A stretch of 64,000 nt of DNA from Sinohyriopsis cumingii (Eukaryota; Mollusca; Bivalvia; Unionida; Unionidae), in assembly GCA_028554795.2 (NCBI GenBank), contig JAPYKE020000037.1:4131001-4195000 (forward strand). The letters run 5' to 3'. Both the position numbers and the translations under genes were made by a program. The notes beneath the pieces were generated by a model that was given only the letters and a program-made list of their open reading frames with translations, was not told the DNA's origin and did no database searches. Positions 9,854 to 26,860 of the stretch are shown piece by piece; the stretch's first letter is position 1, and every line of letters starts with the position of its first letter.

Positions 9854-10170
9854 AGTAGTAAGGTGTGGTACATTAGCGTCAATGGGAATTAGCATTACAG
9901 AGACCCTTGGGTCAGATTAGCGTCAAGGGAAATTTAACATGGAGAAAAATCGTGGGTCAGATTAGCGTCAAGGGAAATTAACATGGAGAAAAATCGTGGG
10001 ACGGTTTAGCGTCAAAGGAATTTAAACAGGGTGGGGCTTTATAGCGTCAAGAGAAATTGAACATGGGATTTTTTTTTTTTTTTTTTTTTAAATTTTTTTA
10101 AAAAAGGGGTAGGCATTGGAAAGGCTATCTCTTTTCGAGAAATATGGCTGGCCCTGAAAAGGGCCTTTTG
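9854..10170 (+). repeat. Left terminal inverted repeat with five iterons
   Basis: The reverse complement matches 26589-26861 nearly base for base. It contains five copies of WTAGCGTCAA at about 9872, 9916, 9961, 10005 and 10040, spaced 44, 45, 44 and 35 bp, then an oligo-T/oligo-A tract and an inward-facing block ending in a histone-type stem-loop. It has one extra unit of about 45 bp relative to the right repeat. The regular spacing suggests binding sites used in replication or integration; that is inference. Confidence 0.9.
10150..10165 (-). terminator. Histone-type 3' stem-loop of left terminal gene
   Basis: On the minus strand this reads AAAGGCCCTTTTCAGGGCC, then AGCCA. The stem is 6 bp (GGCCCT/AGGGCC) and the loop TTTC, an exact fit to the metazoan histone mRNA stem-loop consensus. 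A purine-rich downstream element, TCTCGAAAAGAGATA, follows about 10 nt later. It lies 25 bp past the stop of the minus-strand gene at 10190-10423. Confidence 0.8.
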
Positions 10171-10189
10171 GTTTATGTTAATATTAATA

Positions 10190-10423
10190 TTAACATAGAT
10201 GGCATCTGTCACATCTTCTTCTTCTTCTTAAACTCCTTCTAACTGCCGGTCCATACACAAGTACCCTCTTGAGACATCCTTGTCTTTCTATGTAAACTCT
10301 CCTCATCCATTGACTAGTATCTGTCCTATCAACAACAGTCCACTTGGACCTGACATACATGAGCATGTCCGTCCGGAACATCATGGAAGACACAAGCGTA
10401 GAAGATTGCACATCGGTCCACAT
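10190..10423 (-). CDS. Small arginine-rich protein, Polinton left end
   Basis: A 77-residue open frame not recognised as any family. The N-terminal half is mixed (MWTDVQSSTLVSSMMF), the C-terminal quarter very basic (RRSLRRRRRCDRCHLC) with CxxC spacing at the end. A TATA box on the minus strand (CCTATAAATAAGCGC, about 10465-10479) lies about 45 bp upstream of the ATG, and a histone-type stem-loop lies just after the stop. Promoter, start, stop and 3' signal fit together, which is why a short frame is called. It is divergent from the gene at 10643. The basic tail might bind nucleic acid; that is inference. Confidence 0.55.
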   Translation of the reverse strand: MWTDVQSSTLVSSMMFRTDMLMYVRSKWTVVDRTDTSQWMRRVYIERQGCLKRVLVYGPAVRRSLRRRRRCDRCHLC

Positions 10424-10573
10424 CTTGAAGCGACGAGAACAAGTGAATCAATGCACTGAACTGCGCTTATTTATAGGAAGAGGTAGGATTGAAACGGATT
10501 GAGTTCATTCACCAATCCGAACACGCGTTACAAAATTCAGTCAGCTCGCATCCAATCCGAAGAGAGCAGTCTG

Positions 10574-10595
10574 TGACGTCAGTTGGTCTATATAG
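10574..10595 (+). promoter_or_regulatory. CRE-like site plus TATA box for gene at 10643
   Basis: TGACGTCA (10574-10581), the palindromic cAMP-response/ATF site, is followed seven bases later by CTATATAG (10588-10595). The ATG is about 50 bp downstream. A divergent TATA box serves the opposite gene about 110 bp away, so this is a compact bidirectional promoter region. Confidence 0.6.
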
Positions 10596-10642
10596 ATTCG
10601 CTAGCGCTTATGTGCAGTCAATCTATGCGACAGTGATTCAAC

Positions 10643-11203
10643 ATGACGGAAACTCAGAAAACGATCCATTGGGGTGCACCAGCAGGGGAGACCGCTCAAG
10701 GGAACTCGGACTTACTTTCAGAAGAGGTACATTGGGATTTTGTGGATTTTCTTACCTCGCAAGAATTTGTTCCGGAACCTTCGTTACCTTCTTCATTACC
10801 GCAAGTGGAGAATTTTAGACAGAGACAGAAAGAAGAATTGGAGAAATTTATGCAACGACAAAAGGAAGCGGAACAAGCTTTTCTCCTACAGCAACAGCAA
10901 CAGCAACAAGAAGAGGTAAGAAAAAAACAACAGCAACAACAGCAAGAAGAAGTAGCAGCAAAGAAACAAGAGGGTGAAAATCAAACGGCTACGGTACTGT
11001 TGGACATTTTAGCGGAGTTAAGAAGTCTGAAACAAATGTATCAGACTTCTTTACTACGACCGAAGAGAATACGACCTTCCCGAGCTAAACACGCCAACCC
11101 TGTGACTAAGCCTGTCGTACCACCCTTAGTGATTTCAACCCAATCATCAGAAGTAGGACTTGGCCGTGGCAAAGGCTTAAGGCAGTTAAAGTTGATTGGT
11201 TAA
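10643..11203 (+). CDS. Gln-rich coiled-coil protein, Polinton left end
   Basis: 186 residues, no recognised domain. Residues 1-55 are acidic and mixed (WDFVDFLTSQEF). About 60-120 is a charged coiled coil with polyglutamine runs (QRQKEELEKFMQRQKEAEQ). About 120-140 is a leucine-rich helix (TVLLDILAELRSLKQMY), and the last 45 residues are basic (RPKRIRPSRAK). Its composition resembles the small coiled-coil genes at the right end, and it shares their histone-type stem-loop 26 bp past the stop. The start is chosen by distance from the TATA box at 10588. A structural or DNA-associated role is a guess. Confidence 0.7.
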   Translation: MTETQKTIHWGAPAGETAQGNSDLLSEEVHWDFVDFLTSQEFVPEPSLPSSLPQVENFRQRQKEELEKFMQRQKEAEQAFLLQQQQQQQEEVRKKQQQQQQEEVAAKKQEGENQTATVLLDILAELRSLKQMYQTSLLRPKRIRPSRAKHANPVTKPVVPPLVISTQSSEVGLGRGKGLRQLKLIG

Positions 11204-11228
11204 ACTCACCCCTACACCAAAATAAAAA

Positions 11229-11268
11229 GGCCCTTTTCAGGGCCACCCACATTTCTCGAAAAGAAATA
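11229..11268 (+). terminator. Histone-type 3' stem-loop plus downstream element
   Basis: AAAAAGGCCCTTTTCAGGGCC, then ACCCAC: an exact match to the histone mRNA stem-loop (stem GGCCCT/AGGGCC at 11229-11244, loop TTTC, flank ACCCA). CTCGAAAAGAAATA at about 11254-11267 sits where the U7 snRNA-pairing element lies in histone genes. It follows the stop at 11203 closely, and no AATAAA lies between the stop and the stem-loop. Confidence 0.85.
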
Positions 11269-11487
11269 CAATTTCAATTTGCCAATAACTCAAAAAAGAA
11301 CCCCACCCATTTTACCCTTATAGTACGTGTCTGTGTATGAGTGCGTGAGTGTAGCTTCTTATTTTAAAATCAAAACTCAAAGACACTTACCTTATATCAT
11401 TCATGTATTCTTTTATCCATTTTTTACAATCCAATTCACAACACAACACTTTAATTAAAAGTTCATTGACTTCTTCTTTCTCCTTAT
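11245..11487. other. Intergenic spacer between converging Polinton genes
   Basis: This AT-rich spacer separates the 3' ends of the genes at 10643-11203 (plus) and 11488-11970 (minus). On the minus strand there is a splice-donor-like ATAAGGTAAGTGT near 11390. No canonical AATAAA was found for the minus-strand gene, so its 3' end is unresolved. Confidence 0.4.
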
Positions 11488-11970
11488 TTAGTCTCTCTGT
11501 TTTTTGAATTTCTTCACCGTTTTTTCCTCATTTTCTTCCCTTCTTCTTTTCTTCTCCTGTTTCTTTGCTTCTTTTAAATAGAATTGTCTTCTTTCTTCCT
11601 CTGAAGAATCCCTCTCTTCTTTCGAAGAATCCCTCTCTTCTTCCGAAGAATCCCTCTCTTCTTCTGAAGAATCCTTCTTTTCTTCTGACTCCTCTTGTTT
11701 CTTTCTTGGGCAATCTGGAGACCAATGTCCTTTTTCTTTACAATAATAACAGGTATCTTGACTTTTGTCTTTTTTAGCCCCTGTTTTTTTTCTTTTTTGA
11801 CGGTCTGGACACTCTGAAGACCAATGCCCTTTCTTCTGACAGATATAGCAAGTATCCTGACTCTTATCTCGAAAGGAAGGAGAGTAGTCCGTCGGCTGGT
11901 CTGAAGAGAATTTTCTAATGACCCCTCGCAAAGCTCTGACGAAACGTTCCATCTGGGTAGTCTCTTCCAT
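11488..11970 (-). CDS. Zinc-knuckle (CCHC x2) basic/acidic protein of the Polinton
   Basis: 160 residues from the ATG at 11970. The longer frame from 12018 would begin only a few bases past the TATA box at 12020-12033, upstream of any expected transcript start. Two CCHC knuckles lie at residues 41-54 (CYICQKKGHWSSEC) and 74-87 (CYYCKEKGHWSPDC). Four tandem copies of DSSEEER/DSSKEER follow at about 100-127, then a Lys/Arg/Glu-rich tail. CCHC knuckles bind single-stranded nucleic acid in Gag and CNBP-type proteins. The repeats alternate acidic residues with possible casein-kinase-2 serines. It is divergent from the polymerase gene. Nucleic-acid binding is a family inference; the exact role is unknown. 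Confidence 0.75.
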   Translation of the reverse strand: MEETTQMERFVRALRGVIRKFSSDQPTDYSPSFRDKSQDTCYICQKKGHWSSECPDRQKRKKTGAKKDKSQDTCYYCKEKGHWSPDCPRKKQEESEEKKDSSEEERDSSEEERDSSKEERDSSEEERRQFYLKEAKKQEKKRRREENEEKTVKKFKKQRD

Positions 11971-12019
11971 CGTTCTCCTCGGTTTGAGAGTGAAATGAAT
12001 AGTGAAAGGACAAGACACA

Positions 12020-12057
12020 CCCTTTTTATATACGCTGGATTGCCAAGACTATAAATT
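12020..12057. promoter_or_regulatory. Divergent TATA boxes between zinc-knuckle and polymerase genes
   Basis: Minus-strand TATATAAAAAG (about 12022-12033) lies about 50 bp before the zinc-knuckle start. Plus-strand CTATAAATT (12049-12057) lies about 47 bp before the polymerase ATG at 12104. Confidence 0.6.
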
Positions 12058-12103
12058 AGTCTATGGTGTTTAAACTTGAGTCATTTGACGTTTTACACTC
12101 AAG

Positions 12104-15100
12104 ATGAAACGATCCCATTCATTCGAGAAGAAAGAAGAAGAAGAAAGTAAGAGGCAGAAACGTGATCTATCGCCTCGTACCAGGGCTGAAATCTTGGCAC
12201 AAATTCATGCCAGTGATTTTGAAGAGGACATGAGTGAACCAGAATCAGAACCCTCTAAACCAAGTTCACCACCCTTAGTCAACCCTGAAAAGTACTATTC
12301 CATTCGAGAGACGGAAAAGCGCTCCTCTAGAAAATTTAGAACCACGGCTTACACCTACACGGTGAAGTTTAAAGATTTCAAGGCCGACGTACCCTTGGAG
12401 AAAGCAGAAGGGTTTATCACCGAGATGTGGGATTCTTTGCTCACCGCACTCAAGCGACAATGTCAAGCCAAAGAAGACGATCGCTTGACACTATCCATAG
12501 ATCACGACGGTTTGAAATCCCCTGTTTGGATCGAGTTTAGCAGACCCGCAGAACTGACCCCTTCCAAAGTCATGGACAAGATACAACAGGTGCAACAATC
12601 TAATGACCAGTTTGACATCACCGATGGTAAAGCCACACTGAAAATGGCCCACGTCTCTCCTCCTCAAGGAACTGGATGCAAAAAGATGTTATTGGTGGAC
12701 GACCTTCGCAACACCAAAAAGAGTCTCGTCCGAATTAACAACCCTCAAGACCAGATGTGTTTAGCCCGTGCCATCGTGGTGGGACGAACCTATGCCAACA
12801 AGAACGACACGGTAGAATGGAAAAGAACCTGGAAAACTATTCAACAATCCGACCGAGCCAAACAACGAAATGAAGCAGAACTCCTGTTGCAACAAGCCGG
12901 ACTGTCCAAAGACACACCCTGTGGCATTCCTGAGATGCAAAAATTGCAAGATGCCCTAGCTCCACGCTACACCTTGAAAGTGCACCCTCAAGAAATGCGT
13001 GGAACTCTGTTGTTTCGAGGCCAAGATTTTAAGGACGGAAAATACATTCATGTCTATCATCACGATGACCATTTCGATACCATTACCAGTATCACTGGAT
13101 TCCTGGGATACAGTTATTATTGTCAGAAATGTGACTATGGTTATAACAATCGAGAGTAACACAAGCATTGTGGAATGAAATGCCCAGGATGTTTGGCCTC
13201 TCCACCCTGTCTGAGCGAAGGACCAGTGCCTTGTTCGACTTGTTTGCGCACGTTTGTCAGTCCTACCAGTTACCAACAACATTTGAAAACACAAGGTTCA
13301 CAGAAGAAATGTGCTTGTCAACTCCTGAGATTGTGCCCTACCTGTGGACAAGGCATACTTACCAATAATGCCAAGGCACACGTATGTCGAGGAAAGAAAA
13401 AATGTCTAATTTGTCACCACATCGTGGACTTAGAACACCAATGCTACGTGCAAAAATACCAACCCCCACCAGAGAAAGAGGACGGTCACAAGAAGAAAGG
13501 CAATTTCATCTTTTTCGATTTCGAATGCATGCAAGAGACCGGCATTCACATTCCTAATTTCTGCGTGGCTCATCGAGCGTGCGAGAAGTGCATTCAAGAA
13601 CCTTCAGTCATTGCCCTCACTGCAGCAAGATTCCTGGAGGACGTGAAAAAATCTTTCGGGGACCAAACACGTTAGCCGATTTTGCCCGATGGGTCTTAGA
13701 CCCCATCGACAAGACGTGGAGCAAAGAGGACATCGAACGTTACGGAGATTGTCATCGTCATGCCACGGTGATGGCTCACAATTTCTCCGGATACGATGGA
13801 CAGTTTCTTCTCAGATACTATACGGAACAAGGCACCGAACGTCCTAAAGTGACTTTGAACGGAGCCAAAATCATTTTCATGCAAGTGGGACAAGTACAGT
13901 TTAAAGATTCGATGAGTTACTTGGCCATGCCTTTGAGTCGAATGCCTAAAACGTTTGGAATGACAGAAATGGCTAAAGGGTACTTTCCACACTTTTTCAA
14001 TACGGAACCAATCAACATGCCGTTCTACCCCATTTGCCTGAGGCTCACTATTACGACCCCGACAACATGCGTACCGAGCAACGAGAAGCTTTCTACGCTT
14101 GGTACCAGGCTCATGCCTCTGACCCCTTCGACTTTCAGGAAGAAATGTTAAAGTATTGTCGTTCCGACGTGGACATTTTACGGCGTTGCTGTGGAAAATT
14201 TCGAGAACTGTTCATGGAACACGGAGGGGTCGATCCTTTGAAAGAAGCTTGCACCATTGCCAAAGCGTGTTCCTTAGTGTACCGCCAACGATTCATGCCT
14301 GAAAACACCGTGGCTGTCATCAGTTCTCAAACGACCCACTATGTCAAGCGTCAATACTCGGTCAAAGCCCTACGTTGGTTAAATTACTTGTGCGACAAGG
14401 AAGACAAATGGATTCAGCATGCCCGCAACTGAGGATGGCGAAAAGACCATCGGAACGTATTCGGTCGATGGCTGGGACTTAGAAAACCCCAAGATCGTGT
14501 GCGAGTTTAACGGTTGCTTATTTCACGGATGTCCCGTCTGTTACCCTGACCGTGACACTAAAAATTAGTTTTTGCAACGAACCATGGAAGACTTGTACCA
14601 GGACACTTGTCAGCGACGCCTAAAGTTAGAACAGCAAGGATACCAAGTGGTGGAAATGTGGGAACACGAGTACGATCACCGTTTGAAAACCGATCCCGAG
14701 TTTAAACGCCTCGTGGAAAGTTACCAGTTCATGGACCCGCTAAACCCGAGGGATAGTTTGTACGGAGGAAGGACCAATGCCACCTGTTTGCTGTACCAAG
14801 CCGACGAAGAGAAAGGAGAAGAAATCAAATAGTTGGACGTGTGTTCGCTGTATCCCTACGTGTGCAAATATTGTCGCTTTCCTGTAGGGCACCCGCAATT
14901 GTTCACCGAACACATCGACCTGAAAAACATTCGACAATACGAAGGCTTGATCAAGTGTAAAGTTTTGCCTCCCACGAACCTATACCATCCCGTCTTACCT
15001 CACCATTGTCAAGGCAAACTGATGTTTCCATTGTGCCGTGCTTGTGCCGAAACGTGCAACCAGGACCAACCTTGCCATCACATCCAGGAAGAACGTGCCT

Positions 15101-16164
15101 TGACGGGAACCTGGGTCAGCGTGGAATTGTTCAAAGCTCTGGACATGGGATACCAACTGTTAGAAGTGTACGAAATTTGCCACTTTCCCAAGACACAACA
15201 GTACCACAAGGGTGACCCTACTCAGAAAGGCATTTTCGCCGACTACGTGGATGCCTTTTTGAAACTGAAACAAGAAGCCAGCGGCTATCCTTCCTGGTGT
15301 CACACTCCCGAAGACCAAATACAATTCAAAGAGAAATACTACGAACAAGAAGGCATCTCTTTAGACCACATCGAAGAAAACGAAGGCAGGCGATCGTTTG
15401 CCAAAGTGATGTTAAATTGCTTGTGGGGTAAAATGGCACAACGACCGTGTTTACCCAAGACGGAATATTTGACAGAACCTTCCCGCTACTTCCAGATGAT
15501 TCACGACAAAACCAAATACATGAAACACGTGGACGTCGTTCGAGAGGATTTGATCTTGGTCAATTACGAAGAAGATCTGGACTTTGTACAAGACGACCCT
15601 TTTGGAAATGTCATCATTGCGGCTTACGTGACAGCTCATGCTCGCTTAAAATTGTACGAAGCTTTAGAACTGTTAGAAGAACGCGTCCTGTACTTTGACA
15701 CGGACAGTTGCATTTACATCCATCACCCGATTCAACAGCACCCTGACATCGAAGGAGACCGTTTAAGAGCCTGGACAGACGAGCATCCCGACGACAAGAT
15801 TCTAAGTTTCGTCAGGGGTGGTCCCAAAAATTACGGCTACGAATACCGGGACAAACAAGGAGAAGTGCACACGACGTGCAAAGTGAAAGGACTGACTCTG
15901 AATCATCGTACCAGTCGTGTGGTCAACTTTGGGGTATTGAAAGAAGCCTTGCAATCGGGAGAGGATGGAAACTTTAAAGTGACCACATATCAACCGAACA
16001 AGATTGTACGTTTACCCACTCACCACATCGTCAGTCGACCCTTGGAAAAAGTCTATCAAATTGTATACCAGAAGCGAGTGCGACTTCCCAATCACTTCAC
16101 CTTACCGTACGGTCACGTCGGTATTGGTCTGTATATGAAAAGGAACCCTAGGCAACATCGATAG
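12104..16164 (+). pseudogene. Protein-primed DNA polymerase B (POLB), broken by three stops and three frameshifts
   Basis: About 1,350 codons, the usual size for Polinton POLB. It would copy the linear element from a protein primer. In order: a Lys/Glu-rich N-terminus, a cysteine-rich region (CQKCDYGY near 13130; CPTCGQG near 13340), exonuclease motifs (FFDFEC near 13514; NFSGYDG near 13780), palm motif A (DVCSLYP near 14836), motif B (KVMLNCLWGKMAQ near 15405) and motif C (YFDTDS at 15691-15708). Breaks: TAA 13157-13159, TAG 14566-14568, TAG 14830-14832 immediately before motif A, and frame changes near 13660, 14025 and 14432. Catalytic residues remain recognisable, so decay is recent. A TATA box precedes the ATG. 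Confidence 0.93.
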
Positions 16165-16190
16165 TTCATTGTTCATTGAAGTAACTTACC

Positions 16191-16583
16191 ATGTCGTTGA
16201 CGAAGAAGAAACCAGATTGGTTAGGAGTCAAATGTTGGACATCACCGAGACCAGTGTTTTGAGGCTTGGACACAAGAGGTGGTCCCAGTACGCACGAGAG
16301 TTATTCAAGGAAAAAAGTTACTTTTCAACCCGTGTTAGTGACGGTGCCAGAAGAACCCGTCACCCAGGACAGGACTGTCGTGGACAGGCCTGAAAGACCC
16401 TTTCGGGAGGACACTTGTGTGACCTTACCCCTTACTATAGAACTGGTTAGAACTTTACCCAAAACATGTGGTTGTTGTACAGACACTTGTGTTTATTCCA
16501 CGTTCATGGTTATCATGTGCCTTTTATTCTTGTACTTAAGCCTTTGGCTTTTATGTATTTTTGTCTTTCGTATTCATGTTTGA
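16191..16583 (+). pseudogene. Small single-pass membrane protein, one in-frame stop
   Basis: A frame of 130 codons starting MSLTKKKPDWLGV, with a TGA at about 16257-16259 and open afterwards to 16583. The C-terminal half has a cysteine cluster (CGCCTDTC) followed by a strongly hydrophobic helix (MVIMCLLFLYLSLWLLCIFVF) and a short tail, typical of a tail-anchored or type II membrane protein. It starts 27 bp after the polymerase stop and is followed by AATAAA at 16591. I do not know a named homologue. An in-frame downstream start might still yield the membrane part. Confidence 0.55.
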
Positions 16584-16590
16584 AACATTC

Positions 16591-16619
16591 AATAAACGTG
16601 TTCTGAAAAAGTATATAAA
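16591..16619 (+). promoter_or_regulatory. AATAAA signal followed by TATA box for ATPase
   Basis: AATAAA at 16591-16596 ends the upstream unit. TATATAAA at about 16612-16619 begins the next, about 48 bp before the ATPase ATG. Only 15 bp separate the two signals, showing tight packing of transcription units. Confidence 0.6.
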
Positions 16620-16666
16620 CTCTTGTCTTGTTTGTTTTTCGTGTCACAAGTGACATTCCTCACACT

Positions 16667-17410
16667 ATGGCTACCTCTGCTGTCTCTGCTCCCTCTTCCT
16701 CTACTGTCAAAGTCATCGACGAACACTTAGATCGTGCAAGTTGGGAGGCTTTGTATCTTCGCCATCCCTTTAACATGCTCATTGCTGGACCTAGCGGATC
16801 TGGCAAAACCGAATTCGTCAAACGTTTGATCGAACATAAACATCATTTGATCGATCGACCCCCTCAACGAATCGTGTGGTGTTACAAAGAGTGGCAATCG
16901 GCGTACAGCCTCTTGCGAGAAAGTCAAGGCGATTCCATCGTGTTTGTGGAAGGCATTCCTAAAGAAGACGACGGCATCGTCTCTGACTCCTGTCAAACCC
17001 ATTTGGTCATTTTCGACGACATGTTAGGAGAAGACGAAGAAGAAATTAAACTGTGGTTCACGCGCAAAGGGCATCACCGTAATGCCAGTGTCGTTTACAT
17101 CACCCAAAATTTGTTTCAACAAAGTAAAGCCCATCGCACCATCAGTCTCAATGCGCATTATGTGGTCTTGTTTAAAAGCCCTCGAGATAAATCGCAAGTG
17201 CAAGTCTTAGCCAAACAGTTAGGAACGCCTTGGCTGACTCAGGCGTACGACGATGCCACTCAAACGCCACACGCCTATTTACTCGTCGATTTGAAACCTA
17301 CCACCCCCGAGGATTTGCGATTTCGTACCCACTTGTTTCACCACTGGTGCCAAGACGGAGGGCCTGTCCTGTACACGTCTCCGTCCTCGACTTCATTTCA
17401 CTCCCCATAA
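16667..17410 (+). CDS. A32-like genome-packaging ATPase (FtsK/HerA superfamily)
   Basis: 247 residues, intact. Walker A is GPSGSGKT at about residues 43-50, Walker B is HLVIFDDM at about 118-125, and a sensor-like VVYITQNLFQQ lies near 147-157, in the order usual for Polinton and poxvirus A32-type ATPases. It would hydrolyse ATP to drive DNA into the capsid. The start at 16667 sits about 48 bp after the TATA box; the frame is open slightly further upstream, but those codons precede or overlap the expected transcript start. The length fits the family. Confidence 0.95.
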   Translation: MATSAVSAPSSSTVKVIDEHLDRASWEALYLRHPFNMLIAGPSGSGKTEFVKRLIEHKHHLIDRPPQRIVWCYKEWQSAYSLLRESQGDSIVFVEGIPKEDDGIVSDSCQTHLVIFDDMLGEDEEEIKLWFTRKGHHRNASVVYITQNLFQQSKAHRTISLNAHYVVLFKSPRDKSQVQVLAKQLGTPWLTQAYDDATQTPHAYLLVDLKPTTPEDLRFRTHLFHHWCQDGGPVLYTSPSSTSFHSP

Positions 17411-17417
17411 AAAAATC

Positions 17418-17425
17418 TATAAAAA
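17418..17425 (+). promoter_or_regulatory. TATA box for basic protein gene
   Basis: TATAAAAA begins eight bases after the ATPase stop codon and 48 bp before the ATG at 17466. Confidence 0.55.
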
Positions 17426-17465
17426 CCTCAGACCCTTTTTCGTCTGTCTCACTCTCAGTACGAAC

Positions 17466-18869: not shown

Positions 18870-19514
18870 ATGGAAGGACGAAAACTAGCTTTAGTGCCTT
18901 ACAAACGATGGATGGAATACCATCGGTGGCAAGAACAACACACCCCGCATTTACCTCCCAATCCCCATTTGAGCGAGATGTCCCAGTTACAACACGAATT
19001 GCAGTCCTTGATGGATCGCCAAGATTTGTCCGAAACAGAAAAATCGCAAAAGTACGGTCAACTCTTGCAACGACTGCAACTCTTTCACCAGAAAGCTTTA
19101 GACGAAACAGCTCTACCCACTCTGAAAGATTTTAAGACCTTGATGAAAAGTCCAGCACCATCACCAGTACCAGTATCAGTACCAGTACCACCAGTACCCG
19201 TGACCAAGACAGAAAAAGGAGAAGAAGAGGAAGGGTTTCAAACTCCACCAGAAAAAGTACGCAAGTTAACAACACCACCTACCTCCAGAATTGGATGGAT
19301 TAAAAAGATGATGGCCACCCCTTCTTCCTCACAAGAGAAAAAGAAAGTGAAGACAGAAGTGAAGACAGAAGTGAAACAAGAACCGATATCCCCCGCTCAG
19401 ACATCCTTCTCCTCTTCGACACCTATTGCTGGCCGCACACGCAAAGCATTGCAATCCAAGAAAATGCCCCAAGAGAAAAAGAGTAGCATCCTCCAAGAGT
19501 GGGTGTCTTATTAA
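18870..19514 (+). CDS. Unrecognised Polinton protein, helical then Pro/Lys-rich
   Basis: 214 residues, intact. The N-terminus (KLALVPYKRWMEYHRW) is followed by a predicted coiled coil at about 35-95 (LQHELQSLMDRQDLSET). Next come a Pro/Val repeat (PVPVSVPVPPVPV) at about 95-112, an acidic patch and a basic C-terminal third containing TEVKTEVKQEP, a SUMO-consensus-like motif. A comparable LVPY-x-R start occurs in proteins at this position in other Polintons, from memory of the family. Function unknown. The next gene, integrase, begins 21 bp later with no TATA box, so the two may be cotranscribed. Confidence 0.65.
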   Translation: MEGRKLALVPYKRWMEYHRWQEQHTPHLPPNPHLSEMSQLQHELQSLMDRQDLSETEKSQKYGQLLQRLQLFHQKALDETALPTLKDFKTLMKSPAPSPVPVSVPVPPVPVTKTEKGEEEEGFQTPPEKVRKLTTPPTSRIGWIKKMMATPSSSQEKKKVKTEVKTEVKQEPISPAQTSFSSSTPIAGRTRKALQSKKMPQEKKSSILQEWVSY

Positions 19515-19535
19515 CACACCAACCAACACAAAAAA

Positions 19536-20645
19536 ATGGAAAAAGTCTTAGCCAGCATTTACTACGATCCCTCCCATCCTGCAGGTTACGCAGGAGTTCA
19601 AAAATTGTATCGTGCTGCCAAAACGCGACTGAAAAGTCTCCGTTTACCTCAAGTGCAACGATGGTTACAAGAACAAGCTACCTACACTTTACACAAACCC
19701 ATTCGACGCAAGTTTGCCAGAAGTCGCACCCGAGTGGAAGGCATCGATCATCAATGGCAAGCCAATTTAGCCGATGTCTCTCATTTGGCCAGCTACAATC
19801 GTGGCTACAAATATTTGTTTTGTGTCATCGACGTCTTTTCCAAATTTGCCTGGGTCGTGCCCTTGACTTCCAAATCGAGCAGCGAGTTAGTGTGAGCCCT
19901 GCAACGGGTGTTGAAACAAAGCGGTCGTCACCCTCTTCGATGGCAAACGGACAAAGGCACCGAATTTCTGAACCAAGCTTTCCAAAAAGAATTAAAGAAA
20001 CGTGACATTCATTTTTTTACCACAGAGAATCCCGAAACCAAAGCCAGCATCGTGGAACGTTTTCAACGCACTTTGAAAGAACGCATGTGGAAATATTTTA
20101 CGCATCACCACACTCTGAAGTACATCGACATCTTACCGCACCTGGTGCAAGCGTACAACCAATCTTACCATCGAAGCATCGGACGTGCCCCGCAAGACGT
20201 GACTCCCGACAACGAAGTGTTGGTGTTTGAGCGCCTGTTTGGTACGTCCCCGACGAGGGCTGTCCCCAAGAAAAGTGGAGACTTGGCCGTAGGAGATTGG
20301 GTGCGCATTGGCAAAACCAAACGCACTTTCGACAAAGGTTACTTACCTAACTGGACGACCGAATTGTTTCGTGTCACTGGACGAGTGCATAGCCGTCATC
20401 CTGCCGTCTATAAATTGGAAGACATGAACGGAGAAGTGCTCAAAGGAACGTTTTATTTGCCCGAGTTACAACGTGTCACCAAAAAAGAAGACGACGTGTA
20501 CGACATCGAAAGCATTCTCGAACGCAGAACCCGTAAAGTGGGCAAACGACGTGTCAAAGAAGTCAAAATACGTTGGAAAGGATATCCACACAGTTTTGAT
20601 TCTTGGATCGACGCTTTGCAAGTCATCGACTATAAAAAGAAGTGA
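19536..20645 (+). pseudogene. Retrovirus-like integrase with C-terminal chromodomain, one in-frame stop
   Basis: About 369 codons interrupted by TGA at 19893-19895. The DDE catalytic core keeps its acids: Asp in ANLADVSHL (near 19770), Asp in QTDKGTEF (19950-19952) and Glu in SIVERF (20055-20057). The last two are 35 residues apart, the spacing of retroviral and Polinton integrases. An N-terminal helical domain precedes the core. The C-terminus has an SH3-like part (GDWVRI) and a chromodomain at about 20497-20627 (VYDIESILERR, IRWKGYP, DSWIDA) that could target histone tails. The enzyme would join element ends to target DNA, leaving 6-bp duplications. The single stop separates the first catalytic Asp from the other two acids. 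Confidence 0.92.
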
Positions 20646-20650
20646 CCATC

Positions 20651-21067
20651 ATGCCCTTTCACACAGCAGACGCAGCTACGTCGACCACTCCTTCTTCACC
20701 TAGTTGTTCTGTGCAAGATTTACAAAAACAACCCTTGTGGGTGTGGTGTGGAGAACGTGTGCCTAAAACGCAAATCGTCTTTTTCTGCCAAATCTTCGTG
20801 GTGTATTGTGTCATCGGGGCAGCCATCGCCAATTTGAGTTTGCAACAAGGAGACAAACAATTGTGGACCATTTTATTGAGCAGTTGCATCGGTTACCTGC
20901 TTCCTAATCCCTCCCTGAAATTCACCTCGAACGGGAACCCCGGGAACCTTGTGTCCAGTGCCAGTGCCAGTAACCACTCCAACCACAACCAGAACCCCAT
21001 TTTGGGCGGAGGCACGCCTCTGACGTCCACTAACCCCTCGGACAGCCACAGAACTCTGGAATTATGA
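20651..21067 (+). CDS. Small two-pass membrane protein
   Basis: 138 residues from the ATG at 20651, intact. After a Ser/Thr-rich N-terminus comes PLWVWCGERVPKTQ, then two hydrophobic segments (IVFFCQIFVVYCVIGAAIA and LWTILLSSCIGYLLP), then a Ser/Asn-rich tail. Proteins with this layout and the GYLLPNP motif are common in Polintons beside the minor capsid gene; their role is not established. Its stop overlaps the next start as ATGA (21064-21067), suggesting translational coupling. Confidence 0.75.
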   Translation: MPFHTADAATSTTPSSPSCSVQDLQKQPLWVWCGERVPKTQIVFFCQIFVVYCVIGAAIANLSLQQGDKQLWTILLSSCIGYLLPNPSLKFTSNGNPGNLVSSASASNHSNHNQNPILGGGTPLTSTNPSDSHRTLEL

Positions 21068-21987
21068 GTCACCATAACCAATTTTACTTAACCTTACCCA
21101 GTGACAGTTCCATGGAGGTGTTTCCCAAGAACACGTTGTGCTGTTACACGGCCAAATTACCTCAAGCCATCCCCTTAGATCACGAAGCCCATTGGGAAGT
21201 GGCTTTAGTAGAAATCATTCACCCGACCCAAGTCCTCAATGTCCTTCCCAATCAAAATTTTTTTGATGTGGAAGTTCATGACGAACAATTGCAACAGTGG
21301 ATGGATAGCAATGTCAAATATGACAAGAAAACCCGTACACAAAAGTACACCACCTATCACTTGTTCATTTCCCCAGGCTATTATTTTAGTGGTCAACATC
21401 TGGTCAGCACCATAGCCTCCAGGTTTAATGCCGTGTTTCTGAAAGCTTTGGAGCATGTTAACAAAAGTGTCACCATGGAGTACCACAAAACAGCTCGTCG
21501 CTTCTTGATGAAATTTGAACGGAGTAAAATCCTGTCCATTTTATTTTGTCCTGAATTGTATGACATGTTGGGCGGAGACATGAACCTGAGAATGAGCATG
21601 ATGAAGAAAAGCGAATTACCCATCGTTTACGACAACGAGTCTTTTAGCAAGTTATTTCGTGCCCCGGTAGAACTGAACCAAGGACTGAATTTGATGTTTG
21701 TGTACTCCGATGTGGTGGAGTATAACGTGGTGGGACACACCTCCGTACCGTTACTGCGTGTCATTCCTTACAAAGTGGATTCTGCCACGAACACTGACGA
21801 GGAAGGTGGAAACACTTACCACGTCCACCGCGAATTTGTACATCCTCACTATTTGCCTGTCAGTAAGCCGTATTTGGACACGGTCAACATTACTATAAAA
21901 GGAGATTTGGGACAAAATATTCCATTCACCAAAGGAAAAGTCACGGTGAAACTCCATTTTCGAAAACGGTTTTCTCACGATTCGTAA
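21064..21987 (+). CDS. Minor capsid protein (PX, penton-like)
   Basis: 307 residues, intact. The start (FYLTLPSDSSMEVFPKNTL) and WEVALVEIIHP near residue 42 match the conserved N-terminal pattern of the Polinton PX family, which is predicted to be a single-jelly-roll minor capsid protein sitting at the vertices. Length agrees. It overlaps the upstream membrane gene by ATGA and is followed after three bases by the next start at 21991, so 20651-22427 behaves like a tightly packed gene string. Assignment rests on family resemblance, not on structure. Confidence 0.85.
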   Translation: MSHHNQFYLTLPSDSSMEVFPKNTLCCYTAKLPQAIPLDHEAHWEVALVEIIHPTQVLNVLPNQNFFDVEVHDEQLQQWMDSNVKYDKKTRTQKYTTYHLFISPGYYFSGQHLVSTIASRFNAVFLKALEHVNKSVTMEYHKTARRFLMKFERSKILSILFCPELYDMLGGDMNLRMSMMKKSELPIVYDNESFSKLFRAPVELNQGLNLMFVYSDVVEYNVVGHTSVPLLRVIPYKVDSATNTDEEGGNTYHVHREFVHPHYLPVSKPYLDTVNITIKGDLGQNIPFTKGKVTVKLHFRKRFSHDS

Positions 21988-21990
21988 GTC

Positions 21991-22323
21991 ATGTATCCAG
22001 TGTACCGAGGGGTTGCTCGACAGCGAGGACACGGCTTAGGAGAGATGTTAAAATCGGCCTTTCGTTCGGTGGCCCCGGTGTTGAAACCGATGGTGACACG
22101 CGGATTGCACGCCTTGAAAGATGCGGCACTGACACAAGGCAAAGAATTTCTCCAAAATGTCATCATCGACAAACAAAACCCTAAAGAAGCCTTCATGAGG
22201 GCAGGCAAAAATGTCTTGCTGCAAACGGGCAAAGACATTTTAGGCCAACGAGAAACACCTATAAATGCCCTGCACGCTACCGAGTCAGGCATTCAGCAAG
22301 GACAAGGCAGAAAGAGACGATGA
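21991..22323 (+). CDS. Small virion protein, adenovirus pVI-like position and layout
   Basis: 110 residues, intact. The N-terminus YRGVARQRGHGLGEML is a Gly/Arg motif followed by an amphipathic helix (LKSAFRSVAPVLKPMV), then a helical body and a basic end (GQGRKRR). A short protein with this start regularly lies between the minor and major capsid genes of Polintons and is compared with adenovirus protein VI, a membrane-lytic, capsid-interior protein. That role here is inference. Its TGA (22321-22323) overlaps the ATG of the next micro-gene. Confidence 0.7.
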   Translation: MYPVYRGVARQRGHGLGEMLKSAFRSVAPVLKPMVTRGLHALKDAALTQGKEFLQNVIIDKQNPKEAFMRAGKNVLLQTGKDILGQRETPINALHATESGIQQGQGRKRR

Positions 22324-22427
22324 AGAAAACACCCTTTCACCAGACTTCAAGCGAGAAAGGCCAAGAAAAGAAGAACCGTTCGAGACTTAGACGTTTTCGA
22401 TTATTGAGAAAAGAGACAAAAAAATGA
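22320..22427 (+). CDS. 35-residue basic micro-protein, overlapped at both ends
   Basis: Encodes MKKTPFHQTSSEKGQEKKN, then a basic Arg/Lys/Leu-rich end (RSRLRRFRLLRKETKK). The ATG at 22320 overlaps the TGA of the upstream gene, and its TGA at 22425-22427 overlaps the major capsid ATG at 22424 (ATGA). Together it fills the roughly 100-bp gap completely. The exact fit at both ends and the strong charge (about 14 Lys/Arg) favour a real gene, perhaps a core peptide like adenovirus mu. No homologue is known to me. Confidence 0.5.
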   Translation: MKKTPFHQTSSEKGQEKKNRSRLRRFRLLRKETKK

Positions 22428-23735
22428 TGCACCGAGAATCTTGCGCTTGTTCCAAGACGGAACTGGATCTTTTTGCCATGCCCCCCACGATGATGACGAT
22501 GCAAGAATCCCAGTGGGTGGAATTTCACCCCGTCTCCTCACTGACCGATTCCGCTCCCATCAAGTTTGAAATCAAAGGACAGCCCGAAGATTACATCGAT
22601 CTGAATAGCAGTTACTTGTACCTGAAAGTCAAAATTCTAGATAAGACTGGAGGTGCTATAGACGATGAAGCAGTAGCTCCCGTCAACAATTTCATGCATT
22701 CCTTGTTCAGTGGAGTGGACTTGTACTTGAATAACAAACTGGTCAGTAGCAGCATGGATACTTACCCTTATCGTGCCTACCTGGAAAATCTCTTGACGTA
22801 CGGAATAGATGCCAAGAACACTCATCTCAATGCCTGTGTGGTATGGGAAGCTGACGAACCTACCAAGTTTGAAATATTGGAAACTGATGAAAAGAAAGAC
22901 AACAGTGATGGATTTGTAGAACGAAGAAAGAGAATCACGGGAGCCGACACAAGTTTAGAACTGATGGATCGTTTGCATTTGGACATGTGGTTGCAAGAAA
23001 AGTATTTGCTGAACGGGGTGGATGTCCGCCTGAGACTGAATCGTAGCAGTGCCGCTTTCCATTTGATGGCTGATAGTGACGGTTACAAAACCAAAATCCT
23101 AGAAGCCAGACTCTACGTACGCCGTGTGGAAGTGTTACCTAAAGTGGGAAACGACATCAGTCAGACGTTGAGCAGAACGACTGCCAAGTATCCCATACGA
23201 CGCGTGGAAGTGAAAACCTTCACCATTCCCAAGGGACAGCAATCCATGATCGAAGATCATCTGTTCCAAGGACAGTTACCCAAACGTTTGATCGTTGGTA
23301 TCGTCGAGAATACAGCCTTCAACGGAGCTGCCGAAAAAAATTCTTTCTACTTTCAACACTTTGGCGTGTCCAAAATCGAAGTCAGTCACGATGGCAAGAC
23401 CTTGTGTACCCGACCTTTCGAACCTGACTTTACCAAGAAGAATTACTTGATCGTACTTGTCCCTGTACGAAGCTACCGGACAGTTAGGAACCAATACCAG
23501 TCACGGTATTACGTACGAGGATTATGCAGGAGGCTACCCTTTGTGGGCTTTCGATTTCACTCCAGACCAAGGCAGCGACGAGGGACATTTCCACCCTATA
23601 AAATCCGGCCAGATTCGTTTGGAAATTCAGTTTAAAGACCGAGACCCTGATGAAACGGTGAACGTCATCCTGTATGCAGAATTCGATAATACCATAGAAA
23701 TCAACAGTTTGAGAGAAGTCATCCTAGATTACTAG
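22424..23735 (+). pseudogene. Major capsid protein (PY, double jelly-roll), one frameshift
   Basis: About 437 codons in two frames. The first runs from 22424, with CSKTELDLFAMPP and WVEFHPVSSLTDSAPIKFEI, then EDYIDLNSSYLYLKVKI, the conserved start of the Polinton major capsid family (in databases often named after the nematode protein F54H12.2). The second, from about 23457 to the TAG at 23733-23735, has GYPLWAFDFTPD and VILYAEFDNTIEIN, the conserved C-terminus. The frame changes by one base near 23450-23465. It would form the hexameric capsomers. The rest of the gene is free of stops, so this break looks recent or could be a sequencing error. Confidence 0.92.
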
Positions 23736-23810
23736 AAACCATGGAAGACTGTTATCCCTCTTTACCTAGTGGAGAAACTTTAAAGATGGAATGTGAGGAG
23801 ACTGGAAAAA

Positions 23811-24032
23811 ATGTTGTGTTTTGAAAAAAATTGTTTGATGTTATGATGTTGGATTATTGTTAAAAATGTTAGAGTTGTTGTTTAGTGTTAAGTGATTTTT
23901 GAATAAAAAATGTTGTGTTTTGAAAAAAATTGTTTGATGTTATCATGTTGGATTATTGTTAAAAATGTTAGAGTTGTTGTTTGTTAGTGTTAAGTGATTT
24001 TTGAATAAAAAATGTTGTGTTTTGAAAAAAAA
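23811..24032 (+). repeat. About 100-bp tandem repeat with AATAAA signals after capsid gene
   Basis: A unit beginning ATGTTGTGTTTTGAAAAAAA starts at about 23811, 23910 and 24012, giving two full copies and a partial third. Each full copy ends with TTTTTGAATAAAAAA, placing polyadenylation signals at about 23902 and 24004. It is the only 3' signal seen after the capsid genes, so it probably ends their transcripts. A 27-codon frame (23741-23824) precedes it and is not called. Confidence 0.75.
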
Positions 24033-24136
24033 TGCCTTTGTGGTTTGTTTAGCTATAAGAATGTTGGATTGATGCTCTTTCATTTCTTACTATCCCTCGC
24101 ATGACACTCACTGAACGTTGCGGCTCGAAAACCGTG

Positions 24137-24180
24137 TGGGGGATGTTTTCCTTCACGTCCGCGCTTTGACTTTAAGAACC
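24137..24180 (+). promoter_or_regulatory. Shared promoter block, copy 1
   Basis: GGGGGATGTTTTCC at about 24138-24151, TTCACGTCCGCGCTT next, then a weak TATA-like CTTTAAGAAC. Near-identical blocks lie at 25006-25048 and 26083-26122, each 50-55 bp before the start of a small coiled-coil gene, so this is very probably a promoter. The GGGG...TTTTCC half recalls Rel/NF-kappaB sites, but spacing differs. Confidence 0.75.
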
Positions 24181-24230
24181 GGGGTTGTTTCCAGTCTAAC
24201 CATCCATTGTCGACTCATCCTCCTAAGAAG

Positions 24231-24593
24231 ATGTGTTCCAAACTAGCTAAACTCAACGAAGCCTACGTGAATTTGCATAGGGTCAGATACAGTCTGATAC
24301 CGAAGCCAGAAGAAATAGAGAATGTGAGAATGTTAAAAATCACTGAAGACCTGATAGAAGAGCTCTTCAGAGAAGAAATGAACAGGGAGAAAGAAGAATG
24401 GACGGAGAAGTACAGACTTCAGAGACAGCAGCAACAGCAGCAACAACAACAACAACAGCAGCAGCAACCTGAAGCTGACAGAGGCTTTGTCGATTGTTGG
24501 ATCGACACCAAAGAATTCTTCTTCTCTTTTCGAAGAAGCAAACCTATCGCCAGAAAGTCTATCCTCAGAGGACATCGCATTCTTAGAAACTAA
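24231..24593 (+). CDS. Small coiled-coil protein with polyglutamine, module 1
   Basis: 120 residues from the ATG at 24231 (MCSKLAKLNEAYVNLHRVRY), the first ATG after the promoter. Helix-rich N-terminal half, charged coiled coil (EELFREEMNREKEEW), about 15 consecutive glutamines near residue 70 and a basic C-terminus. It is the first of three tandem genes with the same promoter, a helical N-terminus and the same histone-type 3' stem-loop, so they appear paralogous although sequence identity is low. Function unknown; a regulatory or host-interaction role is speculation. Confidence 0.65.
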   Translation: MCSKLAKLNEAYVNLHRVRYSLIPKPEEIENVRMLKITEDLIEELFREEMNREKEEWTEKYRLQRQQQQQQQQQQQQQQPEADRGFVDCWIDTKEFFFSFRRSKPIARKSILRGHRILRN

Positions 24594-24625
24594 AAAAAGA
24601 ATGCCATAGCAAACAAAAAAAAAAC

Positions 24626-24665
24626 AGCCCTTTTCAGGGCTACCCAATACTCTAGAAAAGAAATA
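24626..24665 (+). terminator. Histone-type 3' stem-loop plus downstream element, module 1
   Basis: AAAACAGCCCTTTTCAGGGCT, then ACCCAA: stem AGCCCT/AGGGCT, loop TTTC, standard flank. TCTAGAAAAGAAATA follows ten bases later. It differs from the 11229 signal only by the outermost base pair, which is compensated on both sides of the stem. Confidence 0.8.
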
Positions 24666-25005
24666 ACGATCGATTTGCCAATGTGTGTAGGTAGAGTAGT
24701 GTGAAAATAAACACTAACTCTTTTTTAAAAATGTGAGGGTATGCGTTTGTGTGTTTGTGTTTGTAAGTGCTTAAGTAAGTTGGTATGGATAGTAGATTAA
24801 CATGATGTCTTTTTTTTTGGTGTTTGAGGTGTAAATTTGGGGTTAGATTGGATTGATTTGAGTATGTGGATAGTCTATTGAAGTGATTTATAAAAAATTT
24901 AAAAATAGTGATGGGTAGCATAAAAAAGTGAGTGAGTGTTTCTTTTAGGTCCGCGCGTTGTTGTTTTTTGGTTATGATCTAGGTAAGATCAATTTTATGT
25001 TTTTA
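24666..25005. other. Module 1 spacer, duplicated after module 2
   Basis: The sequence after the stem-loop (GATTTGCCAATGTGTG..., then GTAGGTAGAGTAGTGTG and AAACACTAACTCTTTTTT) recurs after module 2 from about 25471, with an expanded TG tract. The gene plus its spacer was therefore duplicated as a block. A degraded promoter-like piece (TTTCTTTTAGGTCCGCGC) lies near 24939. Confidence 0.6.
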
Positions 25006-25048
25006 GGGGGATGTTTTCCATCACGTCCGCGCTTTCACTATAAATTGA
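25006..25048 (+). promoter_or_regulatory. Shared promoter block, copy 2
   Basis: GGGGGATGTTTTCCATCACG, then TCCGCGCTTTCAC, then a good TATA box CTATAAATT (about 25038-25046). The ATG is at 25096. Confidence 0.8.
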
Positions 25049-25095
25049 AACTCGCTGGGCAGTCTAGTTACCCTTGTTGATTGTTCAACACAAGA

Positions 25096-25404
25096 ATGAA
25101 TAGCAGAATAAGCAAACTTCTTGAACTCCAGATACATCTGGAATATGTCAGGCGCCTGTTAAATGAACTGGCCGCGGAGGCTATAGTAGAAGAGGAAAGA
25201 ATGAAGAACGAAGAGGAGGAGAGAAGACAGAGGGAAGAGGAGGAAAAGAAACTAGAAGAGAGGATGTCGTACAATATTCCCGAGACAGAGGATTGGGGTG
25301 TTGAAGCGAATCATCCTCCCTCTGCGCTCCCCAGAAGAAAGGTGAAAGGAGACTGGGGAAGAAGATGCGTGTGTGGCGCCAGGCCAGGAAGGTGCAACCA
25401 TTAG
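25096..25404 (+). CDS. Small coiled-coil protein, module 2
   Basis: 102 residues starting MNSRISKLLELQIHLEYVRR, the first ATG after the TATA box. An N-terminal leucine-rich helix (LELQIHLEYVRRLLNELAAE) leads into a Glu/Arg coiled coil at about 33-60 (EEERRQREEEEKKLEERM). A less charged C-terminal part ends RRCVCGARPGRCNH with three cysteines. It shares promoter type, position and 3' stem-loop with modules 1 and 3. No known domain. Confidence 0.65.
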   Translation: MNSRISKLLELQIHLEYVRRLLNELAAEAIVEEERMKNEEEERRQREEEEKKLEERMSYNIPETEDWGVEANHPPSALPRRKVKGDWGRRCVCGARPGRCNH

Positions 25405-25430
25405 ATAGGTACATCTGGAGTTAAAAAAAC

Positions 25431-25470
25431 AGCCCTTTTAAGGGCTACCCAATACTCTAGAAAAGAAATA
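25431..25470 (+). terminator. Histone-type 3' stem-loop plus downstream element, module 2
   Basis: AGCCCTTTTAAGGGCT, then ACCCAA: stem identical to module 1, but loop TTTA instead of TTTC. CTAGAAAAGAAATA follows. The loop change is the one departure from consensus among the five copies and might weaken binding of stem-loop binding protein. Confidence 0.7.
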
Positions 25471-25485
25471 ACTATCGATTTGCCA

Positions 25486-25489
<4 letters not shown>

Positions 25490-25543
<54 letters not shown>
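25490..25543. repeat. (TG)n microsatellite in module 2 spacer
   Basis: A run of about 27 TG units at the place where the module 1 spacer has only a few, showing local expansion after duplication. Confidence 0.95.
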
Positions 25544-25545
<2 letters not shown>

Positions 25546-25619
25546 GTAGAGTAGTGTGATTATAAACACTAACTCTTTTTTCATAGTGCGAGGGTATGTG
25601 TTTGTGTGTTGGTGCATGT

Positions 25620-26062
25620 AAGAGCTAAGGTACGTTTGTGTGAATAGTAGATTATGGGTTTCTTTATTGTTTCTTAGCGTAGGTGAAGAGTATAGTTAGG
25701 GTTCTGTAAGCGCTCACGTACGATTGTGTGGATAGTAGATTATGGATTTTGTTTATTGTTTCTTAGCGTATGTGGAAAGTATAGTTAGGGTTTTGTAAGC
25801 GCTCACGTACGATTTTGTGGATAGTAGATTATGGATTTTGTTTATTGTTTCTTAGCGTATGTGGAGAGTATAGTTAGGGTTTTGTAAGCGCTCACGTACG
25901 ATTGTGTGGATAGTAGATTATGGATTTTGTTTATTGTTTCTTAGCGTATGTGGAGAGTATAGTTAGGGTTTTGTAAGCGCTCACGTACGATTGTGTGGAT
26001 AGTAGATTATGGATTTTGTTTATTGTTTCTTAGCGTATGTGGAGAGTATAGTTAGGGTTTTA
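25620..26062 (+). repeat. 89-bp minisatellite inside the Polinton
   Basis: The marker GTAAGCGCTCACGTACG recurs at about 25706, 25795, 25884 and 25973, a constant 89-bp period, with a partial first copy from about 25620. Each unit contains GGATAGTAGATTATGG, also found once in the module 1 spacer, so the array grew from duplicated spacer. Each also carries CTTAGCGTA, similar to the iteron core in the inverted repeats. Confidence 0.9.
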
Positions 26063-26082
26063 TTATATGAAATGAAAAAGTA

Positions 26083-26122
26083 GGGGGATGTTTTCCTTCA
26101 CGTCCGCGCTTTTCGTATAAGA
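26083..26122 (+). promoter_or_regulatory. Shared promoter block, copy 3
   Basis: GGGGGATGTTTTCCTTCACG, then TCCGCGCTTTT, then TATA-like CGTATAAGAA (about 26114-26122). The ATG is at 26173. Confidence 0.8.
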
Positions 26123-26172
26123 ACCCACAGTATTCGTCGTTCAAACCATTCTGCAAAGAATAAAAAAAGAAG

Positions 26173-26562
26173 ATGGCTTCTAACCAAATGGACAAAATGG
26201 AAAAATTGCAAAACGTCCTTGACAATTTAGGAATGATAGAGCAAATGTTGGTTAACCTAAACGAGGATCACTATTCTTATAGTCCCCATCGAGTGAAGAT
26301 GGAGATAAACAATTTACGAAAAATGAAGGTAATCATCAGTGATCTGTTGAAAGAAATAAAGGAGGAGAAGGAGGATGAAGAGGAAAGGATAAGGATGAGA
26401 GCATGGAATGAAAAAATTGAAAAAGAAGAAGAAAATGAAAAGAGGAAGAAAGAAGAGGAGGAAGAGAAGAAGAAAGAAGAGCAGGAGAAAGAAAAGAAAG
26501 AAAAGAAGAGAAAGAGTGTTGGAGATAAAATAAGAACTTGGTGGAGAAAAAGAAGAAACTAG
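26173..26562 (+). CDS. Small coiled-coil protein, module 3
   Basis: 129 residues starting MASNQMDKMEKLQNVLDNL. Residues 8-65 form two amphipathic helices (NVLDNLGMIEQMLVNL; INNLRKMKVIISDLLKEI). About 66-115 is a very charged Glu/Lys coiled coil, and the end is basic (GDKIRTWWRKRRN). It is the last gene before the right inverted repeat, and its 3' stem-loop lies in the repeat itself. The low-complexity half makes homology searches unreliable. Function unknown. Confidence 0.65.
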   Translation: MASNQMDKMEKLQNVLDNLGMIEQMLVNLNEDHYSYSPHRVKMEINNLRKMKVIISDLLKEIKEEKEDEEERIRMRAWNEKIEKEEENEKRKKEEEEEKKKEEQEKEKKEKKRKSVGDKIRTWWRKRRN

Positions 26563-26588
26563 AAGCAGAAGAAGAAGAAGAAGAAAAC

Positions 26589-26860
26589 ACAAAGGCCCTT
26601 TTCAGGGCCAGCCATATTTCTCGAAAAGAGATAGCCTTTCCATTGCCTACCCCTTTTTTAAAAAAATTTTAAAAAAAAAAAAAAAAAAAAATCCCATGTT
26701 CAATTTCCCTTGACGCTATAAAGTCCCACCCTGTTTAAATTCCTTTGACGCTAAACCGTCCCACGATTTTTCTCCATGTTAATTTCCCTTGACGCTAATC
26801 TGACCCAGGGGTCTCTGTAATGCTAATTCCCATTGACGCTAATGTACCCCACCTTACTAC

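Follow-up and report, generated by a model that had tools for sequence, protein, structure and literature searches.

Histone-type stem-loop signals follow the small end genes of a Polinton in the bivalve Sinohyriopsis cumingii

The stretch of DNA analyzed here (the window; 64,000 nucleotides, positions 4,131,001 to 4,195,000 of contig JAPYKE020000037.1 in assembly GCA_028554795.2) comes from the bivalve Sinohyriopsis cumingii, whose genome comprises 2.9 Gb in 1,138 contigs. The window carries a Polinton occupying approximately 9.85 to 26.86 kb, as delimited by its inverted-repeat arms (the ends are approximate). Besides its core genes, the element bears five small genes near its ends, arranged as a divergent pair at the left end and three consecutive genes at the right, and behind each of them stands a hairpin of the type found at the end of replication-dependent histone genes. 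Histone-type 3' ends after small Polinton genes had been proposed from a reading of the sequence alone (the sequence-only reading), and their apparent presence is supported by what was found in the window, by other copies in the genome, and by a match to the signals of the host's own histone genes. Polinton/Maverick elements are recognized by a family B DNA polymerase, a retroviral-type integrase with a chromodomain, an A32-type packaging ATPase, a double jelly-roll capsid protein, and terminal inverted repeats with a 6-bp target duplication. The assignment to this group is borne out, with the polymerase, ATPase, integrase, capsid protein, and inverted repeats all identified in the window.

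Hairpins, downstream elements, and the genes that precede them

The five hairpins, designated Lminus, Lplus, R1, R2, and R3, have perfect 6-bp stems and sit exactly where the sequence-only reading had placed them (Table 1). A strict motif scan found five such hairpins in the window against 0.001 expected by chance, an estimate obtained from 2,000 simulated windows of the same trinucleotide make-up, which gave 2 matches altogether. Three of the five sites reach the gathering score of the Rfam Histone3 family (RF00032; threshold, 34 bits), with spans of 11224 to 11268, 10125 to 10170 on the minus strand, and 26589 to 26634; the window scan reported only matches at or above that threshold, and the two AGCCCT hairpins (24626 and 25431) were not listed at it. 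All of the hairpins follow stop codons, as had been claimed, with gaps between stop and stem of 24 nucleotides (nt) at Lminus, 25 nt at Lplus, 32 nt at R1, 26 nt at R2, and 31 nt at R3, a range of 24 to 32 nt in place of the proposed 25 to 35 nt. The flank following the stem, described as mostly ACCCA, has that sequence at three sites; at the two inverted-repeat sites it is AGCCA. The five hairpins are not independent of one another, because the outer two (10150 on the minus strand and 26594 on the plus strand) are both copies of one inverted-repeat site, the left repeat containing the stem-loop of the minus-strand end gene, and because the R1 and R2 ends are duplicates, with the 71 bases surrounding 24626 and 25431 being 97% alike.

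The purine motif GAAAAGA lies exactly 13 nt past the stem at 5/5 Polinton sites. The downstream element reads GAAAAGAAATA at Lplus, R1, and R2 and GAAAAGAGATA at Lminus and R3, the pair of sites in the inverted repeats. The motif AAAGAG is described as the purine core of the histone downstream element, which pairs with U7 (PMC7026596, in part).

The host histone genes, which lie in tandem units of approximately 8.3 kb, served as a control. The genome contains at least 662 histone candidates (a lower bound), of which 150 were scored, and 3' ends were read for one H3 gene, one H4 gene, and three array copies of H2B, H2A and H1 being outside this sample. All three gene types end in the GGCCCT stem that is seen at three Polinton sites, the consensus stem of Rfam Histone3 being GGCUCU, and all three carry GAAAAGA exactly 13 nt past the stem; the 13-nt spacing is common to 8/8 sites (three host histone gene types and five Polinton sites). 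The host flanks following the stem are ACACA, ATACA, and ACAAA, unlike ACCCA. A single PF00125 exon outside the arrays (L068) showed no hairpin over the 301 bases covered. The downstream element of a host H4 gene (L072) runs directly into AATAAA (GAAAAGATAATAAA) and in this resembles one human histone gene in which the poly(A) signal overlaps the downstream element (PMC9756948, in part).

The end genes resemble metazoan replication-dependent histone genes in having small open reading frames (ORFs), a hairpin approximately 24 to 32 nt past the stop codon, and a purine element spaced as it is in host H3, H4, and H2B. They differ in belonging to a mobile element and in their products, as there was no Pfam match to a histone domain in the four of the five end-gene ORFs that were scanned (the 77-amino-acid ORF was left out). 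All five proteins lack the LxCxE motif, an Rb-binding viral motif that induces S phase. The 186-amino-acid ORF had no Pfam match and 19 homologues (E ≤ 0.001), none functionally named, on contigs of up to 2.3 kb, and the sole Pfam match of gene R3, RPN2_C, scored 17.2 bits against a cut-off of 26.8. Across the window and 30 further loci, 63 of 70 hairpins stand 13 to 35 nt after an ORF of at least 60 amino acids, the remaining 7 having no ORF, a short ORF, or a gap of 47 to 58 nt; two hairpins in this list are counted twice, since loci L005 and L006 overlap.

The element contains two classes of 3' signal, with ordinary poly(A) signals by sequence following the polymerase region and the capsid array (Table 1). 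Further AATAAA motifs are found immediately ahead of the Lplus stem (11221), past R1 (24706), and around and in R3 (26159 and 26355). The words GATGTTTTCC and CACGTCCGCGC have three occurrences each when both strands of the window are checked, all of them before right-end genes, and each copy of the module (24142, 25010, and 26087) precedes a TATA-like stretch. TATA- and CCAAT-like stretches are also present at the left divergent pair. By these features, the end genes resemble stand-alone histone-like units, unlike the rest of the element, and the three right-end genes sharing GATGTTTTCC..CACGTCCGCGC may form one regulated set.

Table 1. Features of the Polinton in the window (window coordinates; aa, amino acids)
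Feature	Position	Strand	Remark
Left terminal inverted repeat, best-aligned part	9953..10168	.	arms extend outward to ~9854
Putative histone downstream element GAAAAGAGATA (Lminus)	10126..10136	-	13 nt after stem
Stem-loop Lminus, GGCCCT-TTTC-AGGGCC	10150..10165	-	Rfam Histone3, 35.4 bits
77-aa ORF, Arg/Cys-rich tail	10190..10423	-	ends 24 nt before Lminus stem-loop
186-aa Gln-rich ORF	10643..11203	+	divergent from 77-aa ORF; precedes Lplus
Stem-loop Lplus, GGCCCT stem	11229..11244	+	Rfam Histone3, 41.2 bits
Putative histone downstream element GAAAAGAAATA (Lplus)	11258..11268	+	sequence reading
DNA polymerase B pieces	13771..16164	+	Pfam DNA_pol_B_2; frames broken here
AATAAA past polymerase region	16591..16596	+	ordinary poly(A) signal by sequence
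Packaging ATPase, Pox_A32 type	16667..17410	+	Pfam Pox_A32 above cut-off
Integrase pieces	19536..20645	+	Pfam chromo above cut-off, rve below
Major capsid protein	22424..23635	+	homology to F54H12.2-like proteins
AATAAA past capsid array	23902..23907	+	GU-rich stretch follows
Second AATAAA past capsid array	24004	+	GU-rich stretch follows
Promoter-like module GATGTTTTCC..CACGTCCGCGC before R1	24142..24164	+	exact words; further copies from 25010, 26087
Gene R1, 120 aa	24231..24593	+	ORF before R1 hairpin
Stem-loop R1, AGCCCT-TTTC-AGGGCT	24626..24641	+	sequence reading
Putative downstream element GAAAAGAAATA (R1)	24655..24665	+	sequence reading
Gene R2, 102 aa	25096..25404	+	2 homologues (E ≤ 0.001)
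Stem-loop R2, AGCCCT-TTTA-AGGGCT	25431..25446	+	sequence reading
Putative downstream element GAAAAGAAATA (R2)	25460..25470	+	sequence reading
Gene R3, 129 aa, Lys/Glu-rich	26173..26562	+	RPN2_C below Pfam cut-off
Right terminal inverted repeat	26591..26807	.	reverse complement of left repeat
Stem-loop R3, GGCCCT-TTTC-AGGGCC	26594..26609	+	Rfam Histone3, 35.1 bits
Putative downstream element GAAAAGAGATA (R3)	26623..26633	+	sequence reading

Copies of the element and U7 candidates in the host genome

Exact genome matches numbered 13,744 for GGCYCTTTTCAGRGCCACCCA and 15,965 for AGCCCTTTTHAGGGCTACCCA, 29,709 in sum, and the reversed control patterns had 0 matches. The host H3, H4, and H2B genes add nothing to these counts because their flanks are not ACCCA. 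Divided by its two sites per element, the AGCCCTTTTHAGGGCTACCCA count suggests approximately 8,000 right ends in the genome. Eight of eight loci cut from the GGCYCTTTTCAGRGCCACCCA list, which were the first in order and on contig 1, proved to be Polinton ends (7 distinct places). The genome yielded 28,538 seed candidates in a capsid search, and the best 95 of them were scored; 91 of these 95 copies had no internal stop, a figure that leans toward intact copies because the 95 are the best-scoring ones. The hairpin (NGCC/NGCT stems, TYTN loop) was absent from 30/30 capsid loci taken with 1.5 kb on each side.

Both ends were read in ten of the 95 capsid copies, which are plus-strand copies from high on the list, chosen with the hairpin ignored. 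These were expected to contain 50 sites, and 49 were readable, one lying beyond the fetched stretch. The stem was perfectly Watson-Crick paired at 45 of the 49, had one G-U pair at 2, and was broken at 2, by the loss of one base at one site and of the whole hairpin at the other. In copy L051, the R1 hairpin region (near 1972) is gone and its flanks are kept. Among the 48 hairpins of the fetched copies, 44 had the purine element at 13 nt and 3 had it at 14 nt, and 1 lacked it. Variability over the 16 hairpin bases was compared with that of 16-nt flank windows (153 per site) in these capsid-selected copies. Flank windows as low in variability as the hairpin numbered 7/153 at R2, 0/153 at R3, and 2/153 at Lminus (nine copies); only these three of the five hairpins stand out clearly from their flanks by low variability.

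Pattern searches for a host U7 gene gave 356 matches against 108 in the control for one pattern, with one dispersed repeat dominating among the matches listed, and 8 matches against 10 in the control for a second. One candidate (L073), picked by eye for its Sm-like site, scored 16.4 bits, below the threshold of 34, and is not claimed; its stretch from 80 to 140, with CTCTTTTC and the Sm-like site AATTTGTCTAG, is a weak host U7 small nuclear RNA candidate. Pairing energies with this weak candidate were -7.1 to -11.4 kcal/mol for the Polinton sites and -7.4 to -9.7 kcal/mol for the host histone sites.

Probable processing of end-gene transcripts and alternative explanations

Animal histone pre-mRNAs are cleaved by CPSF73 between the hairpin, to which stem-loop binding protein (SLBP) is bound, and the purine element, which is recognized by the U7 small nuclear ribonucleoprotein (snRNP) (PMC7026596, in part). 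The signals described above make it highly likely that transcripts of the Polinton end genes undergo histone-type processing by SLBP and U7 of the host, the polymerase region and capsid array using ordinary poly(A) signals and the five end genes the histone-type signal of the host. Host SLBP would bind the hairpin and the U7 snRNP the purine element of end-gene transcripts, CPSF73 would cleave between the two, and the mRNA would stop past the hairpin without a poly(A) tail. Such mRNAs would follow the schedule of histone mRNAs from synthesis through export and translation to decay and would be tied to S phase, the time at which nucleotides and the enzymes of replication would be available to the element. 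We infer the use of SLBP and U7, the lack of poly(A), the S-phase timing, and the benefit to the element from sequence. That the element splits its genes between the polyadenylation and SLBP/U7 pathways and thereby ties its small end genes to S phase appears moderately likely, and, since the 29,709 motif copies exceed the 662 histone candidates (itself a lower bound), there may be competition between element and host for SLBP and U7. The signal found here is a complete, host-matched histone 3'-end signal on the non-histone genes of a mobile element, in thousands of places. If it works as proposed, the SLBP/U7 pathway is open to hijacking, a viral gene can be linked to S phase through its 3' end, and S phase is where the roles of the five end genes can be looked for.

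Several observations weigh against such processing. Genome searches for U7 with Rfam and for an SLBP gene gave no match, with the controls equally without match, and the best of seven U7 candidates read (L074) scored 21.0 bits, below the threshold of 34, and is not claimed. Random stretches of the window paired with the weak candidate L073 as well as the Polinton sites did in 4 to 22% of cases (9 to 20% for the host histone sites). The retention of the hairpin is not independent evidence, because the copies are related and best-scoring, and the hairpin is not distinct from its flanks at Lplus (33/153 windows as low) or at R1 (135/153), where the comparison includes one copy that has lost the hairpin. 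The sequence-only reading took the exchange of the outer pair (A-T for G-C) as compensation and a sign of selection; this claim is weak, as there is at most one such event between the two site classes, which is therefore little evidence of selection. An AATAAA stands 78 to 84 nt past the stem at 9 of 10 R1 sites, and with this and the motif at 11221 near Lplus, poly(A) ends are also possible. In Drosophila, loss of SLBP leads to the use of downstream poly(A) sites (PMC2781718, in part), and the R1 AATAAA might be a fallback site of this kind.

The hairpins could instead be inherited baggage, a host histone 3' end captured together with a gene, now functionless, and spread by duplication of end genes. 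Both the stem and the downstream element match the host histone genes, CTAGAAAAGA is shared by R1 and R2 with host H3, H4, and H2B, the R1 and R2 ends are mutual duplicates, and the copies of the element are closely related, all in keeping with such a history. However, almost all flank windows at R2, R3, and Lminus are more variable than the hairpin, the 13-nt spacing has been retained in 44/48 copy hairpins, and inspection by eye shows no obvious kinship between host and Polinton 3' ends apart from the hairpin and purine element, so that inheritance without function is considered unlikely. A role at the level of DNA, in which the palindrome functions in replication, in resolution, in packaging, or as a binding site for integrase and the likeness to histone signals reflects shared short palindromes, might be suspected from the two hairpins that lie inside the terminal inverted repeats. 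Three others lie outside the repeats, though, 5/5 come after a stop codon and on the same strand as the gene, and the loop, 3' flank, and purine element at fixed spacing match host histone pre-mRNA in ways that DNA folding does not need; such a role is hardly credible.

It is also conceivable that hairpin RNAs from thousands of copies act as decoys, soaking up SLBP and U7 so as to starve or delay the histone supply and favor viral DNA over chromatin. The 29,709 exact motif copies would suit this, but a mere sponge has no need of coding ORFs 13 to 35 nt ahead of 63/70 hairpins, and the decoy account is judged very unlikely; decoy action could take place alongside histone-type processing of the end-gene transcripts.

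The remainder of the element, its relatives, and neighboring sequence

The copy in the window is degraded, its polymerase and integrase each being scattered across several ORFs and its capsid frame diverging from those of relatives close to the end. DNA_pol_B_2 (family B DNA polymerase) is matched in three ORFs, one of them above the Pfam cut-off, and in the integrase the chromo domain passes its cut-off and rve scores 21.4 bits against a cut-off of 32.6. The capsid protein has 892 homologues, and F54H12.2-like proteins of oysters and a clam are among the 120 listed. The terminal inverted repeats are identical at 213 of 216 positions (9953 to 10168 against the reverse complement of 26591 to 26807); no target-site duplication is visible at the aligned repeat boundary, and the true ends probably lie further out. 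With its PolB, Pox_A32-type ATPase, rve/chromo integrase, F54H12.2-like capsid, and inverted repeats, the element is like Polinton/Maverick elements and adintoviruses; the difference lies in the histone-type 3' ends borne by its small end genes. Within its span, a 160-amino-acid ORF with CCHC zinc knuckles (11488 to 11970, minus strand) lies on the strand opposite to the core genes, and a tandem array with an 89-bp step lies between R2 and R3 (25570 to 26103), made up of five overlapping 178-nt copies with 63 to 97% identity to the reference.

A capsid alignment search of IMG/VR found no relatives of the capsid gene. Two stem-loop patterns had one match each in that database, and the match of the first was set aside, being on a contig with ORFs that look phage-like by eye. 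Three incomplete Polinton pieces from contigs of metagenome-assembled genomes (MAGs) contained no histone hairpin; this says little because the pieces are short, incomplete, or broken, L010 beginning in the polymerase and stopping 1.3 kb past the capsid gene, L011 being broken up downstream of its capsid gene, and L012 measuring 3.6 kb. Two of the three are in a tubeworm-endosymbiont MAG and one is in a Breoghania MAG, and such Polinton pieces in bacterial MAGs are probably contamination, presumably from animal hosts.

Iridoviruses, mimivirus, and virophages place the 3' ends of viral mRNAs at hairpins; to our knowledge, these are not SLBP-type histone stem-loops and have no U7-type element. 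No report of histone stem-loops in Polintons was found among the titles and opening lines of abstracts listed in the literature searched, subscription journals being mostly outside it. A term search of an adintovirus-related preprint (PMC11071296) showed two uses of "histone", both for histone-like adomavirus proteins, and none of "stem-loop". PMC2781718 states that evidence for SLBP binding to non-histone RNAs is lacking.

Outside the Polinton, the window contains a non-long terminal repeat retrotransposon on the minus strand (34265 to 39172) with several ORFs, encoding endonuclease, reverse transcriptase, and RNase H. Two similar stretches, 52984 to 54627 and 58893 to 60304, lie approximately 5.7 to 5.9 kb apart, with repeat pairs that are 83 to 94% alike, and the second of them is followed by 29-bp and 43-bp tandem arrays.

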